DNA of 64,000 nucleotides from Lactococcus allomyrinae (GTDB taxonomy: Bacteria > Bacillota > Bacilli > Lactobacillales > Streptococcaceae): the NCBI RefSeq assembly GCF_003627095.1, contig NZ_CP032627.1:1674001-1738000 (forward strand). The letters run 5' to 3'. The notes under the pieces are model-generated. The model had not been told where the DNA came from and did no database searches. It was given only the letters and a program-made list of their open reading frames with translations. Of the stretch, positions 13,838-55,430 are shown in pieces; position 1 is the stretch's first letter; each line of letters opens with the position of its first letter. Position numbers and translations under genes: made by a program.

Positions 13838-14242
13838 TTTTTAATGTCCTTTTCATTAAAATTTGCACGCTCCACCGCCTTTGCGTCGCAATTTTGCCTC
13901 GCGAGGTAGATATGGCTGGCATTTTCATAAGATGTGAGCCCGACTGCTTTAAAGTCATGAAAAATAGGAAAATGTGGTTGCCTTTTGCTCTTGCCGCTTT
14001 AGCTATCCATTGGCTGTAAGGCGCTAAATGGCAATCAAACGGACAGCGTAGTGGCAAAGCCACGGAGGTCTGTGCATAGCACAGGTTCCATTTTATCATT
14101 TTTCACTGACTTCAAGAAGGGCGGACTCAATTCTGCTGTGAAAGCTCCTGTCGCACTTACTTTTATTTTATCAAACTTTGATGCTGATTTTAGCAAAAAG
14201 TGAAAAGAAAATACGTAATTCTGGTTAAATGTTTGGAAATAG
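13838..14242. other. 405-bp intergenic region without a gene (repeat mosaic)
   Basis: Contains the purA leader, a decayed copy of promoter repeat R3 (13921-14099, minus), and inside that copy an inserted GC-richer palindromic block (about 13980-14075: AGCTATCCATTGGCTGT and CAGCGTAGTGGCAAAGCCAC). Related GC-richer text occurs at 15990-16090, 30060-30130 and 44220-44340. The remainder (14100-14242) holds nothing recognised. Confidence 0.6.
13921..14099 (-). repeat. promoter repeat R3, copy C (decayed, upstream of purA)
   Basis: On the minus strand it begins GATAAAATGGAACCTGTG, includes CCACATTTTCCTATTTTTC and ends GGGCTCACATCTTATGAAAAT. This matches the copies upstream of hit and dusB, but the -10 TATAAT is degraded to GAAAAT. 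About 90 bp of unrelated GC-richer palindromic sequence interrupts it after the small hairpin. Confidence 0.7.
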
Positions 14243-14929
14243 CTAATTTTTGTAACCTGCAAAATTCCAATTCACAATTTGACCTGATTTCTGATTATAT
14301 TGAATATCAATTTCAACATTATTCTTGGAAGTAGCCGGCGTTCTCCAAACCGCATTAAGAACGTTTTGCCCTTCATCATCTACCGTGCTATAAATCTGAG
14401 TCGGTGCTGGAAGTGCAGCTGCTAAAGTTGAGTACAATGTTCCTCCTGTATACGTCATTTTCCCATCTGCTCCATCTTTTGTTTCGGTTGCACAGTGAAT
14501 TGAATAAAAAAGATGATTTGTCCAACCTGGAATCTCTGAAAGATGATTTGCTGCAAACTCATATTTATCTCTGCTTGATGCAGTAGGAGAACCATATGGT
14601 CCATACGAGCTGCTGCTACTTTTTGAAAAAGCGTTGATTTCGGAATTGTTAGGATTTTTTAGAGCTCCAACAATTGCAATCACAAAAAAGACAAGTAAGG
14701 CAATCGAGAATAAAATAATATTTATCGTCCAAAATTTTGTCTTAAATTTATATACTTTCTCTTCTTGAGCTGTTTCGGAGGTTTTCTCATCAATTTTAAT
14801 CTGCTTTATTTTATTCGCTTCTTCGAGCGCTGAATCAATATATTGAGTATGACAAAACGCACACTCAACACCATTTTCTATCTCAATGAACTCATTGCCA
14901 CCACACTGCTCACAGATTTGTTTTTTCAT
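14243..14929 (-). CDS. zinc-ribbon, single-pass membrane protein of unknown function
   Basis: 228 residues. The N-terminus is a zinc ribbon with cysteines at 6, 9, 23 and 26 (CEQC and CAFC). A charged linker and one transmembrane helix (about 68-90) follow, then a Ser-rich stretch and an extracellular domain of about 120 residues ending NWNFAGYKN. The architecture resembles other zinc_ribbon-TM proteins of Gram-positives whose outer domain is variable. The outer domain is not recognised. It stands alone between purA and divergent hslO; the start is preceded only by a weak GGGATAAGAA. Confidence 0.75.
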   Translation of the reverse strand: MKKQICEQCGGNEFIEIENGVECAFCHTQYIDSALEEANKIKQIKIDEKTSETAQEEKVYKFKTKFWTINIILFSIALLVFFVIAIVGALKNPNNSEINAFSKSSSSSYGPYGSPTASSRDKYEFAANHLSEIPGWTNHLFYSIHCATETKDGADGKMTYTGGTLYSTLAAALPAPTQIYSTVDDEGQNVLNAVWRTPATSKNNVEIDIQYNQKSGQIVNWNFAGYKN

Positions 14930-15073
14930 TTCTTATCCCACAGATTGACTTGTTTCTCGTGTAAGACAAGTACCTGTACTTTCAATTTTATTTCATTATA
15001 TTATTTTTAAAAATTGCTTGCAATATTTCTTATCGAAATTTTGCAATTTTCGAAGTTTAGATTCCGTACTTTT

Positions 15074-15082
15074 TGTTATAAT
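15074..15082 (+). promoter_or_regulatory. extended -10 of hslO, leaderless start
   Basis: TGTTATAAT with TATAAT at 15077-15082, six bases before the hslO ATG at 15089. There is no ribosome-binding site. The -35 region is weak (AGTTTA at 15054-15059), as is usual for extended -10 promoters. Confidence 0.65.
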
Positions 15083-15088
15083 TAATTC

Positions 15089-15961
15089 ATGGACAAAATC
15101 ATTAAATCAATCTCAAAAAATGGACATTTTCGCGCTTTTGTTTTGGATTCTACCGACACAGTGCGCGAGGCACAAGTGCGCCACAATACAATGCCTTCGT
15201 CAACTGTGGCGCTGGGACGAACGTTGATTGCGGCGCAAATCTTGGGCGCAAATGAAAAAGGCGATGCAAAAATCACGGTTAAGGTGCTGGGTGACGGCGC
15301 GATGGGCGCAATTATTGCTAATGCAGACAGCAAAGGGCAGGTCAAAGGCTACGTACAAAATAAAGATTTAGACTACAAAAAAATTTCCACAGGCGAAGTG
15401 CTGGTCGCACCTTTTGTCGGAAATGGATTTTTTGTCGTGATTAAGGACATGGGGTTGAAACAGCCTTACAGTGGGCAAGTTGACCTCATCACCGGCGAAA
15501 TCGGTGAGGATTTGGCTTGGTATTTTCTATCTTCTGAACAAACACCATCTTCTGTCGGTTTGAATGTTTTGCTTGACGAAAATGCTGATACAGTCAGGAT
15601 CGCTGGCGGTTTCATGTTGCAAGCATTGCCAGATGCAACGGACGAAGAAATCAGCGAAATGGAGCATAATATCAAAACAATGCCTTCTATTTCAAGCTTA
15701 CTGACGGGCGATGAGCCACTGACAGCTATGTTGTCAGCGATTTATGGCAATATACCTTTTACCATTCTTGAAGAATCACCCCTCAAATTTGACTGCGACT
15801 GCAACAAAGAGCGCTTCCGTCAAGGCATCAAATCGATTGGGGCACAGGCCATTACCGAGATGATTGAAGAAGACCACGGCGCTGAGGTCGTCTGCCAATT
15901 TTGCGAGAGAAAGTATGAATTTGATGAAAATGAGTTGAACAACCTGATTTTAGGCAACTGA
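15089..15961 (+). CDS. hslO: redox-regulated chaperone Hsp33
   Basis: Cytoplasmic holdase activated by disulfide formation under oxidative stress. The 290 residues comprise the N-terminal core, a linker and the C-terminal zinc redox switch with CxC at 236/238 and CxxC at 269/272, all four zinc ligands intact. The ATG follows an extended -10 by six bases with no ribosome-binding site, so the transcript is probably leaderless. In many Firmicutes hslO is followed by a dus gene. Here dusB lies further down on the same strand, after a reductase gene. Confidence 0.95.
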
Positions 15962-54325: not shown

Positions 54326-55088
54326 GAGTAGGACCTACCTCTTTTGATTGTGTAAGATTTGGCAACTTTCCTTTGGTCAACGACAAATAAATTTCATCTA
54401 GACTTGCATTAGGTTGACCAAACTTTGCCCGCAACTCGTCAACTGTACCTGTAGCAATCACTTGACCTTCATGCAAAACTACAAATTTATCACAGAATTT
54501 TTCCGCCGTTGACAAAATATGCGTACTCATCAAGATTGAACTACCGGTTTTCTTCATTTCTAACATCAAGTCAATCAAATCCTGAATTGCTAGAGGGTCA
54601 AGACCCATAAACGGCTCATCAACAATATAAAGTGATGGTTCACACAAAAAAGCACAAATAATCATTACCTTTTGTTTCATCCCTTTTGAAAAATTTACTG
54701 GAAACCAGTCTAATTTATCACTTAATCGAAAGGTTTCTAATAGTTTTTGAGCGCGCGCCATCGCAACTTCAATAGGAATTCCATAAGCTAACGCAGTAAC
54801 TTCAATATGCTCACGTAAAGTTAATTCCTCATAAAGACTTGGCGTTTCTGGAATAAAACCAATTTTTTGGCGATAACCTTCAAGATTTTGTTGTAAAGTT
54901 AGACCATCTAATTCAATTTGTCCTGAATATGGTGTTAATAGCCCTATAATCTCTTGAATTGTTGTCGATTTTCCTGCTCCATTCAGACCAATCAAGCCAA
55001 CAAGTTCTCCATCACCAATCTCAAAATTAACTTCTTTTAATACTGGATTTCCTAGATATCCTCCAGTTAGATTCGTTACTTTTAGCAC
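54318..55088 (-). CDS. ecsA: ABC transporter ATP-binding protein EcsA
   Basis: ATPase of the Ecs exporter, about 256 residues. Walker A GLNGAGKSTTIQEIIG, the signature NFSKGMKQKVMIICAF and Walker B LYIVDEPFMGLDP are seen. I choose the GTG at 55088 (VLKVTNLTGGY), preceded by GGAGAA and matching the family N-terminus. The ATG at 55112 would add eight residues that contain the ribosome-binding site. It overlaps ecsB and is divergent from hit, as in other Firmicutes. Confidence 0.92.
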   Translation of the reverse strand: MLKVTNLTGGYLGNPVLKEVNFEIGDGELVGLIGLNGAGKSTTIQEIIGLLTPYSGQIELDGLTLQQNLEGYRQKIGFIPETPSLYEELTLREHIEVTALAYGIPIEVAMARAQKLLETFRLSDKLDWFPVNFSKGMKQKVMIICAFLCEPSLYIVDEPFMGLDPLAIQDLIDLMLEMKKTGSSILMSTHILSTAEKFCDKFVVLHEGQVIATGTVDELRAKFGQPNASLDEIYLSLTKGKLPNLTQSKEVGPTHE

Positions 55089-55194
55089 TACGTTATGTTC
55101 TCCAATTCTCATTAAATTTGATATAATTGAGTTCAGATGATTAGAAATAAATGAAAAGTAATAGAGTATAAGAACTCTGTTTCACAAAAAAATC

Positions 55195-55312
55195 CCACAT
55201 TTCCTAGCTCCATACTTTCAACATTTCACTGTTCATCGGCTTATCAAAAGTATGAAAAGCCAAGATATATTTTGATTATTTATTGCCAATCAGACTCACA
55301 GCTTAGTATAAT
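55195..55312 (+). repeat. promoter repeat R3, copy E (distal, upstream of hit)
   Basis: CCCACATTTCCTA at the left and -35 TTGCCA (55283-55288), an 18-bp spacer with CTCACAGCTTAG, and TATAAT (55307-55312). Same block order as copies A, B, D and F. Followed by TGAGTTCAC text that also follows the TATAAT at 55125-55130. Confidence 0.7.
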
Positions 55313-55338
55313 TGAGTTCACACCACAGAAGCTAGGAG

Positions 55339-55430
55339 AAAAGACAAGATAGAACCTGCTTCTTTGAGCAGAATCACATTTTCCTATTTCTCTACACTTC
55401 TTGACGGCGTTGCTCACATCTTGGTATAAT
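55339..55430 (+). repeat. promoter repeat R3, copy A (proximal, drives hit)
   Basis: AAAAGACAAGATAGAACCTG, small hairpin, CACATTTTCCTATTTCTC, -35 TTGACG (55401-55406), 18-bp spacer ending GCTCACATCTTGG, extended -10 TATAAT (55425-55430). The best-preserved copy. The hit ATG is 47 bases on and has a normal ribosome-binding site. Confidence 0.82.

Follow-up and report, generated by a model that had tools for sequence, protein, structure and literature searches.

What is the sequence, here called R3, that recurs in front of several genes within a 64,000-nt stretch of the Lactococcus allomyrinae chromosome, and does it provide these genes with a promoter? The stretch (C1:1674001-1738000 of a 2.76-Mb genome, designated G000; hereafter the window) carries R3 copies upstream of hit, dusB, galE, purA, a short U32 gene and ymfF. 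An earlier note, made from the window alone, described them as descendants of one mobile sequence that carries a complete promoter and may mark a co-expressed group of genes. We consider it likely that R3 is a family of non-autonomous mobile hairpins of the BOX or miniature inverted-repeat transposable element (MITE) kind, present in at least two genera, whose units have inserted beside expression signals with the signal kept. A protein search gave identities of 90% and 76% between the DusB protein of this genome and those of Lactococcus taiwanensis and L. raffinolactis, respectively.

R3 is a dispersed family of hairpins

A single R3 unit is about 115 nt long and consists, in order, of AAYTGAGTTCG, a 5' arm, AAAGAYAAA, a small hairpin, TTTCCTATTT, a 3' arm and the right end CTCACATCTT. 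The unit is almost self-complementary from end to end, and the seven units that were folded singly gave folding z-scores of -2.8 to -6.3. The arms differ among subfamilies yet remain complementary, with double changes in 21 of 28 pairs. Paired cells amounted to 89.6%, as compared with 73.8% in shuffles (none of 500 as high), and fell to 43-50% when the partner was slid by 1-3 columns, in a test that is favoured by the derivation of the structure from the same alignment. Units occur singly or head to tail in arrays of two or three, and some contain extra internal modules. R3 has features of a MITE, being short, non-coding and highly paired with inverted ends, and also resembles BOX-type repeats in being a modular stem-loop with variable internal modules.

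A 236-nt query from hit gave 23 matches in the genome at E <= 0.001, which excludes chance. A covariance model was then built from 21 units aligned by their ends, including the hit, dusB and galE copies, and gave 121 matches at E <= 1 in the own genome. Two partial matches (61765-61815 and 906981-907020) were left out, and 100 of the 119 carried on scored at least 36 bits. The class counts given below are based on these 100 matches only, grouped into 73 same-strand clusters; one of the 73 (352355, minus strand) is the reverse reading of a hairpin at 352359 on the plus strand, and the U32 copy, with 28.1 bits, is outside the counts.

Units at promoters abut a -10 hexamer that relatives often have without the unit

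We defined class I as clusters whose right end is TATAAT with at most one mismatch. This class comprises 30 of the 73 clusters, with a right end that mostly reads CTTGNTATAAT. A hexamer with no more than two mismatches to TTGACA was found exactly 18 bp upstream in 29 of the 30, as compared with 4 of the 43 other clusters; TTGACG, TTGGCA, TTGCCA, TTGCAA and TGGACA are among the -35 hexamers. The lone exception, 1414120-1414472, ends TTATTATAAA beside a convergent frame and is probably misclassed. In the consensus fold, the -35 hexamer overlaps a one-sided bulge of the 3' arm.

For the comparison of class I orthologues, 80 stretches were retrieved from the 105 matches listed (27/29 in G005, 17/17 in G001, 13/15 in G007, 11/13 in G012, 12/14 in G004 and 0/17 in G016). 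Orthologous places were sought for 16 class I loci, 11 of which have one in G001, G004, G007 or G012 (34 stretches), which are more distant congeners with 77-80% DNA identity over the hit gene and the last unit. None of the 34 stretches had the right end (CTCACATCTT, one mismatch allowed) within 60 nt, and none had a model match at E <= 0.5, the nearest being a single match of E 0.55 at the U32 gene of G001. An exact TATAAT was located no more than 3 nt from the homologous place in 20 of the 34 comparisons, as compared with 8 of 476 control windows further upstream, and 9 of the 11 loci showed it in at least one relative. At mvaD (2628786), G001 reads TTGATATAATAGTTTCATG, identical to the element end in the own genome, and at 2666927 TATAATAAAATCATG is common to G001 and the own genome. 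At hit, G007 has an unbroken AATTCTCATTAAATTTGGTATAATCTAAGTATATTATAAC. The first half of this text, with one change, is found in the own genome at 55104-55127 and the second half after 55430, and each flank of the array carries a TATAAT; text nearly as at 55104-55127 runs uninterrupted into CTAAGTATATTATAACATTTTC in G007. Since the hit array is flanked by TATAAT and relatives have a native -10, the element appears to replace the sequence upstream of the -10.

These data leave next to no room for the explanation that the shared text is inherited promoter similarity, that is, old orthologous promoters that never moved. In G005, the nearest relative seen (DNA 96% identical over the hit gene and the last unit), the right end is indeed present within 60 nt at 23 of the 27 queried loci, as such inheritance would have it. 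However, the class I loci compared have no unit in G001, G004, G007 and G012, the content of the hit array differs between G000 and G005, and empty sites between near relatives refute inheritance as the sole explanation. As the sign of inheritance, the earlier note had named upstream text shared with distant relatives at corresponding positions, and this was not seen at the 11 loci. The remaining four loci of G005 have an end with two mismatches (330825), a unit about 12 kb off (dusB), one unit fewer (thiI) and an empty site (98666-98788).

We propose that the right end of a class I unit abuts the extended -10 of the host (TGNTATAAT). The host DNA upstream, any -35 included, would be replaced by the TTGRCR-like hexamer of the element 18 bp upstream, and TATAAT would remain on both flanks of the insert. 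As the junction would hold a fresh TATAAT, the next unit could land there, giving arrays. The promoter so composed would, judging from its sequence, be functional. The complete promoter attributed to R3 in the earlier note would accordingly shrink to a -35 and a spacer, supplied where a -10 of the gene was already in place; it is not a general feature either, as 43 of the 73 clusters have no promoter boxes at the right end.

The ATG of an open frame was found 6-7 nt after TATAAT in 13 of the 30 class I clusters, dusB included, when open reading frame (ORF) starts were called mechanically, and the short U32 gene has the same spacing. With an ATG at this distance these genes would be leaderless, and many class I genes look so from their sequence. 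According to the accessible text of one report (PMC3160421), the Lactococcus-Streptococcus clade has leaderless genes, and the very strong TG that precedes the -10 in Lactococcus was taken as a sign that the -35 is probably missing. If so, insertions at the -10 would be tolerable.

Near relatives differ in the number and presence of units

For the comparison of flanks between relatives, 7 of 47 loci were retrieved, picked where flank matches continued or were near, and 10 of 13 additionally retrieved G005 loci were used on the G005 side. The sites of the own units at 98666 and 2384211 are empty in G005. At 4511, 69444 and thiI (2594206), the own genome has one unit more than G005, and the second unit of the hit array has a different make-up in G005. 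Three nearly identical units at 1047417-1047776 correspond to a remnant in G005; this array is perhaps a recent expansion. Conversely, a unit that precedes metG in G005 is absent, among the matches listed, from the own genome, G001, G007 and G016, the site reading GGAAAGAGGAAAATATG as compared with GGAAAGCTGAAGAAAGG, the unit and AAAATATG in G005. As far as the sequences compared go, these differences show that units have been gained or lost. Recombination between units could explain losses within arrays but hardly the single-unit sites. The descent from one mobile sequence proposed in the earlier note is borne out by the dispersed family, the unit-number differences between near relatives, the arrays and the empty sites, which do exist; the profile search of genomes that it had suggested found the family in many of them.

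The dusB locus was rejected as an empty site in G005, the unit being present about 12 kb away, at 73204. There, the unit and dusB (85368) are separated by some 12 kb with CTGATATAA on both sides. By eye, one of the G005 dusB flanks resembles an integrase end, and the dusB -10 may have been the integration site of a mobile element.

Many units of the second class lie at ribosome-binding sites

In the other 43 clusters (class II), the called right end is not TATAAT within one mismatch, although in some of these clusters the called match stops early, at an internal module or at the following unit. The right ends mostly read CACATCTTA, and many are followed within a few nt by a Shine-Dalgarno (SD) sequence (e.g., CACATCTTAAAGGAG and CACATCTTATTTCAAGGAG). 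Class II units would thus have no promoter boxes and would end just upstream of the SD.

In a subset of class II, the unit would lie exactly between the SD (AGAAAGG) and the ATG, and an RNA hairpin would rejoin the two. This subset comprises nine own loci, picked by the left flank with AAAGG or AAAGGAA directly before the element; in all nine, CATCTT (or CATTTT) is followed by an ATG after 0-6 nt. The genes include clpB, type II cas1, leuS, trpD, an amidase and a mannosylglycerate hydrolase. A reading by eye of the gene at 460630, and of the orthologous gene in G005 (L221), as pheS was rejected in favour of clpB. We folded ten leaders, namely eight of the nine own SD-ATG loci together with metG and the clpB orthologue of G005. 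In these predicted folds, SD and ATG lie 113-289 nt apart along the RNA as compared with 7-13 nt (18 in one case) across the helices, and the bridged ribosome sites may be functional. At 742180-742301 of the own genome (L071), a unit stands between the SD and the start codon of type II cas1. The trpD frame downstream of such a unit (L069, 1420-1710) meets a stop after 97 codons in the own genome.

Some units lie directly at the stop of a convergent frame of more than 280 open codons, with the right end in five cases (one being the probably misclassed 1414120) and with the left end in three. A special tie to stop codons was rejected as too weak at five right against three left ends.

Units point toward genes of unrelated function

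In 52 of the 73 clusters, an ORF, counted mechanically for open frames of at least 60 codons, began no more than 60 nt from the right end, as compared with 7 of 73 for the left end read outwards. The downstream genes include those for DusB, an HIT protein, diphosphomevalonate decarboxylase, thymidylate synthase, DNA polymerase IV, RuvB, RpiA, RecO, ThiI, RicT and an rRNA methyltransferase, several of the gene names having been assigned from the first 200-300 residues. As these functions are unrelated, they argue against a single co-expressed group, and the co-expression suggested in the earlier note is not supported by the gene content; a single co-regulated group was rejected on the same ground. 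This also bears on the possibility that R3 is a host family of regulatory promoters or leaders, spread by duplication and kept for co-regulation. The orientation toward gene starts and the conserved structure would suit such a family, whereas, besides the unrelated functions, at several genes the closest relative differs in the number of units or has no unit, and 7 of the 17 congeneric genomes have no model match at E <= 0.001. We regard it as improbable.

Targeting, selection and the mobilising activity

We infer that the choice of sites reflects partly a target preference and partly what selection tolerates. In the extreme form of the latter, insertion would be random in A+T-rich DNA, and the survivors would be those that leave a -10, an SD or a stop codon intact. 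We rate this explanation as quite possible, somewhat short of probable. It is favoured by the unlike signals at which survivors are found, namely the -10, the position before the SD, the junction of SD and ATG, and some 3' ends with both right and left ends of the element; moreover, lactococcal promoters may do without a -35 (PMC3160421, accessible text). On the other hand, CTTGN abuts TATAAT to the base in most class I copies, and random survivors would also be expected further upstream of promoters, where they do little harm, which is an argument and not a count.

Several observations weigh against mobile hairpins that dock beside a signal and keep it. An exact TATAAT at the homologous place was missing from 14 of the 34 comparisons, and from every relative compared at thiI and rpiA. 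The metG pair is not perfectly clean, with 8 extra nt (CTGAAGAA) before the insert. The junctions fit no single length of target duplication, the value being 0 to about 6 nt depending on the locus and the assumed element end, and on comparing the two sides the N of TGNTATAAT is often not the same. The host's own -10 may thus be either of the two TATAAT copies. All ten predicted folds involve the SD in pairing, partly or wholly, its partner in seven being UCUU of the right end; translation might therefore be weakened or switchable just as well as restored. Finally, the Y1 transposase domain (PF01797) is absent from G000 and G005 and present in 2 of 22 genomes; other transposases and a longer parent were not searched for.

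Two candidate regularities at the junctions were discarded. Trials by eye of TTAAA, TTA or TATAA as the target duplication, and of no duplication, gave no solution that fits every junction. The N of TGNTATAAT, considered as proof of a native right-hand -10, fits mvaD and mostly 1087945 and fails at several other loci.

As for the movement of the proposed hairpin family, it would be brought about by an enzyme acting in trans. REP and BIME sequences with their RAYT partners, derivatives of IS200/IS605, are small hairpins without coding capacity, and R3 units could likewise be passengers of a Y1 transposase of the IS200/IS605 type, which acts on single strands. The two are alike in being hairpins that show no clear fixed target duplication and land beside a short sequence. 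R3 differs in that no resident Y1 transposase (PF01797) was found in G000 or G005, on which ground such an enzyme was rejected as the resident mobiliser, and 18 others of the 22 genomes, several of them with units, have no PF01797 either. We find this origin quite unlikely. The most far-reaching version of our proposal is a Streptococcaceae-wide hairpin that homes to TATAAT, AGAAAGG and the TTA at stops. It would be nearly neutral, with the -10 kept, the -35 swapped and SD and ATG meeting across the fold. Its movement would depend on an activity not yet described, perhaps encoded by the host, that works on single strands or is guided by RNA. We put this forward tentatively, as rather unlikely in its entirety.

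The family extends beyond Lactococcus

We found model matches at E <= 0.001 in 12 of 25 other genomes, 10 of 17 belonging to the same genus and 2 of 5 to other genera of Streptococcaceae, and none in the three genomes of other families. The counts in the same genus were 75 (G005), 29 (G008), 11 (G011), 11 (G016), 8 (G001), 6 (G010), 5 (G007), 5 (G013), 1 (G012) and 1 (G017), and in the other genera 13 (G022) and 6 (G021); G002, G003, G004, G009, G014 and G015 are among the genomes that gave none. Sampling of 58 genomes from the genus of G021 yielded matches in 52. An alignment of 25 units from Lactococcus and this second genus showed that the ends and the GAYAAA / TTTCCTA motif are kept, whereas the arms and the loop differ. 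Double changes occur in 15 of 17 inner pairs, and the outer arm pairs are absent from the consensus fold of this alignment. The G022 matches keep the architecture and mostly not the end sequence, by eye. A further subfamily, in tandem, was observed in G011 (L109, L120), with ends reading TTGATATAAT / AGAGTGCGCGCAAATAAAAAG.

No Rfam family reached its gathering score in the window, in 12 loci or in 9 loci searched. The sub-threshold matches were rliD, patAB, sraA, mir-454 and EF0869_EF0870, and a known RNA family was rejected as the identity of R3, as all lie beneath the gathering scores. With most sampled genomes of the second genus matched, R3 is possibly a large repeat family that is unannotated in Rfam. 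As far as searches of the open-licence literature show, the family is unreported for Lactococcus.

Among known kinds, R3 looks most like BOX repeats and Correia elements. Putative mobile promoters, a proposed class, are promoter-bearing sequences copied to unrelated genes; the R3 unit differs in being structured, with both ends defined, and in bringing a -35 to an existing -10. BOX of Streptococcus pneumoniae and the BOX-type RepSU1 of S. suis are likewise modular interspersed repeats with long stem-loops and variable modules, at about 100 per genome (PMC3049150). Of the other streptococci searched in the same paper, all but S. suis and S. mitis have next to none of these repeats, according to its accessible text, which has no mention of Lactococcus and no link to -10 or SD sites. 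Two boxA primers (from the accessible text of PMC7291552) gave no match in the window at 3 mismatches, a comparison confined to these primers. Correia elements of Neisseria (CREE or nemis) are MITEs with sigma-70 promoters mapped upstream of genes and a hairpin RNA cut by RNase III (PMC10969869, accessible text). The arrangement of a -35 and a -10 at the gene end of the element is shared by 29 of the 30 class I clusters, although their -10 is also native, and not by the 43 of class II. Compared by description, R3 thus differs in that its -10 stands where the host gene had one and in its large class without promoter boxes. In the accessible parts of the literature examined, we did not find described either the docking at a host -10 with exchange of the -35 or copies between SD and ATG.

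R3 may offer a concrete, testable case of a DNA parasite that sits inside the most sensitive bases before important genes with the signal kept, such genes being metG in G005 and leuS, thymidylate synthase and ruvB in the own genome, and it may let such a parasite rewire genes without breaking them. For promoter evolution, class I would illustrate how a -35 may be swapped while the -10 stays, and the SD-hairpin-ATG copies would be natural tests of ribosome access across a stem.

Copies in the window

The copies in the window are listed in Table 1. The hit, dusB, galE and short U32 copies are related, as the earlier note had held, and all end YAYATCYTGNTATAAT with a -35-like hexamer 18 bp upstream (by eye for U32). 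The upstream block GATAAAATGRRACCTG that was said to be shared is present at dusB and purA and loosely at hit (GACAAGATAGAACCTG), whereas galE has AAAGATAAATCTTT and U32 is without the 5' half; the common feature of the copies is the hairpin rather than this text. The dusB unit has stem arms of its own (ATGACGGAAATC / GATTTCCGTCAT). The purA copy, formerly viewed as a decayed promoter, is related to the others with its outline intact, but belongs to class II. At ymfF, element sequence is present as had been suspected, but in the opposite junction, with a -10 followed by the left end on the minus strand; there was no covariance-model match at E <= 1 at this site.

Table 1. R3 copies and associated junctions in the window (positions counted from the first letter of the window).
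Feature	Position	Strand	Description	Model score
Left junction of hit array	55104..55127	+	Host sequence AATTCTCATTAAATTTGATATAAT, counterpart of the intact -10 region in element-free relatives	
hit array, first unit	55125..55312	+	Long unit that contains an additional internal module; ends TTAGTATAAT	19.4 bits, E 0.1 (for 55125-55253)
hit array, second unit	55310..55430	+	Class I; hairpin; TTGACG 18 bp upstream of TATAAT at 55425-55430	105.5 bits
dusB unit	16786..16906	+	Class I; TTGGCG 18 bp upstream of TATAAT at 16901-16906	105.5 bits
galE upstream unit	36446..36574	-	Class I; TTGCAA-18-TATAAT	101.6 bits
Short U32 gene unit	50994..51072	-	Class I, 5' side truncated; 3' arm, -35 TGGACA and -10	28.1 bits, E 0.0012
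purA upstream unit	13921..14132	-	Class II; complete hairpin that includes an internal module; right end CACATCTTATG, lacking -35 and -10	85.7 bits
ymfF upstream fragment	29961..30004	-	Left-end fragment only; -10 joined to the left end of the element (TTTTGGTATAAT / TGAGTTTGCAACACCAGAAGC), by eye	

The HIT gene starts at 55478, and the ATG of dusB is at 16914, 7 nt after TATAAT. The mechanical U32 ORF (50064-51110) extends back through the element. The start of this gene is probably the ATG at 50987-50985, which would be leaderless, 6 nt after TATAAT; this ATG agrees with the start region in three relatives compared.

The galE unit is joined directly to a repeat of another family (36353-36448). 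This second dispersed repeat (TTTATCAAARCAAGTGCGTG...CTGAATAAGTCTTGACTTCATT) is also found in the window at 4635-4765, 23273-23349, 30312-30362, 44129-44172 and 44370-44420, and likewise terminates at TATA-like text. A repeat resembling it takes up the -10 region of hit in G008. Copies of a palindrome (ACTGACAGAAT..TTCTGTCAGT) were observed at 2162, 9331, 12029, 25876, 28979, 29020, 45666, 60233, 60903 and other places of the window, nine of them in the repeat family D2; the window holds 50 ACTGAC and 41 GTCAGT. Two 300-nt stretches of the window, 18320-18619 and 19470-19769, lie 1150 nt apart and are 83% alike.

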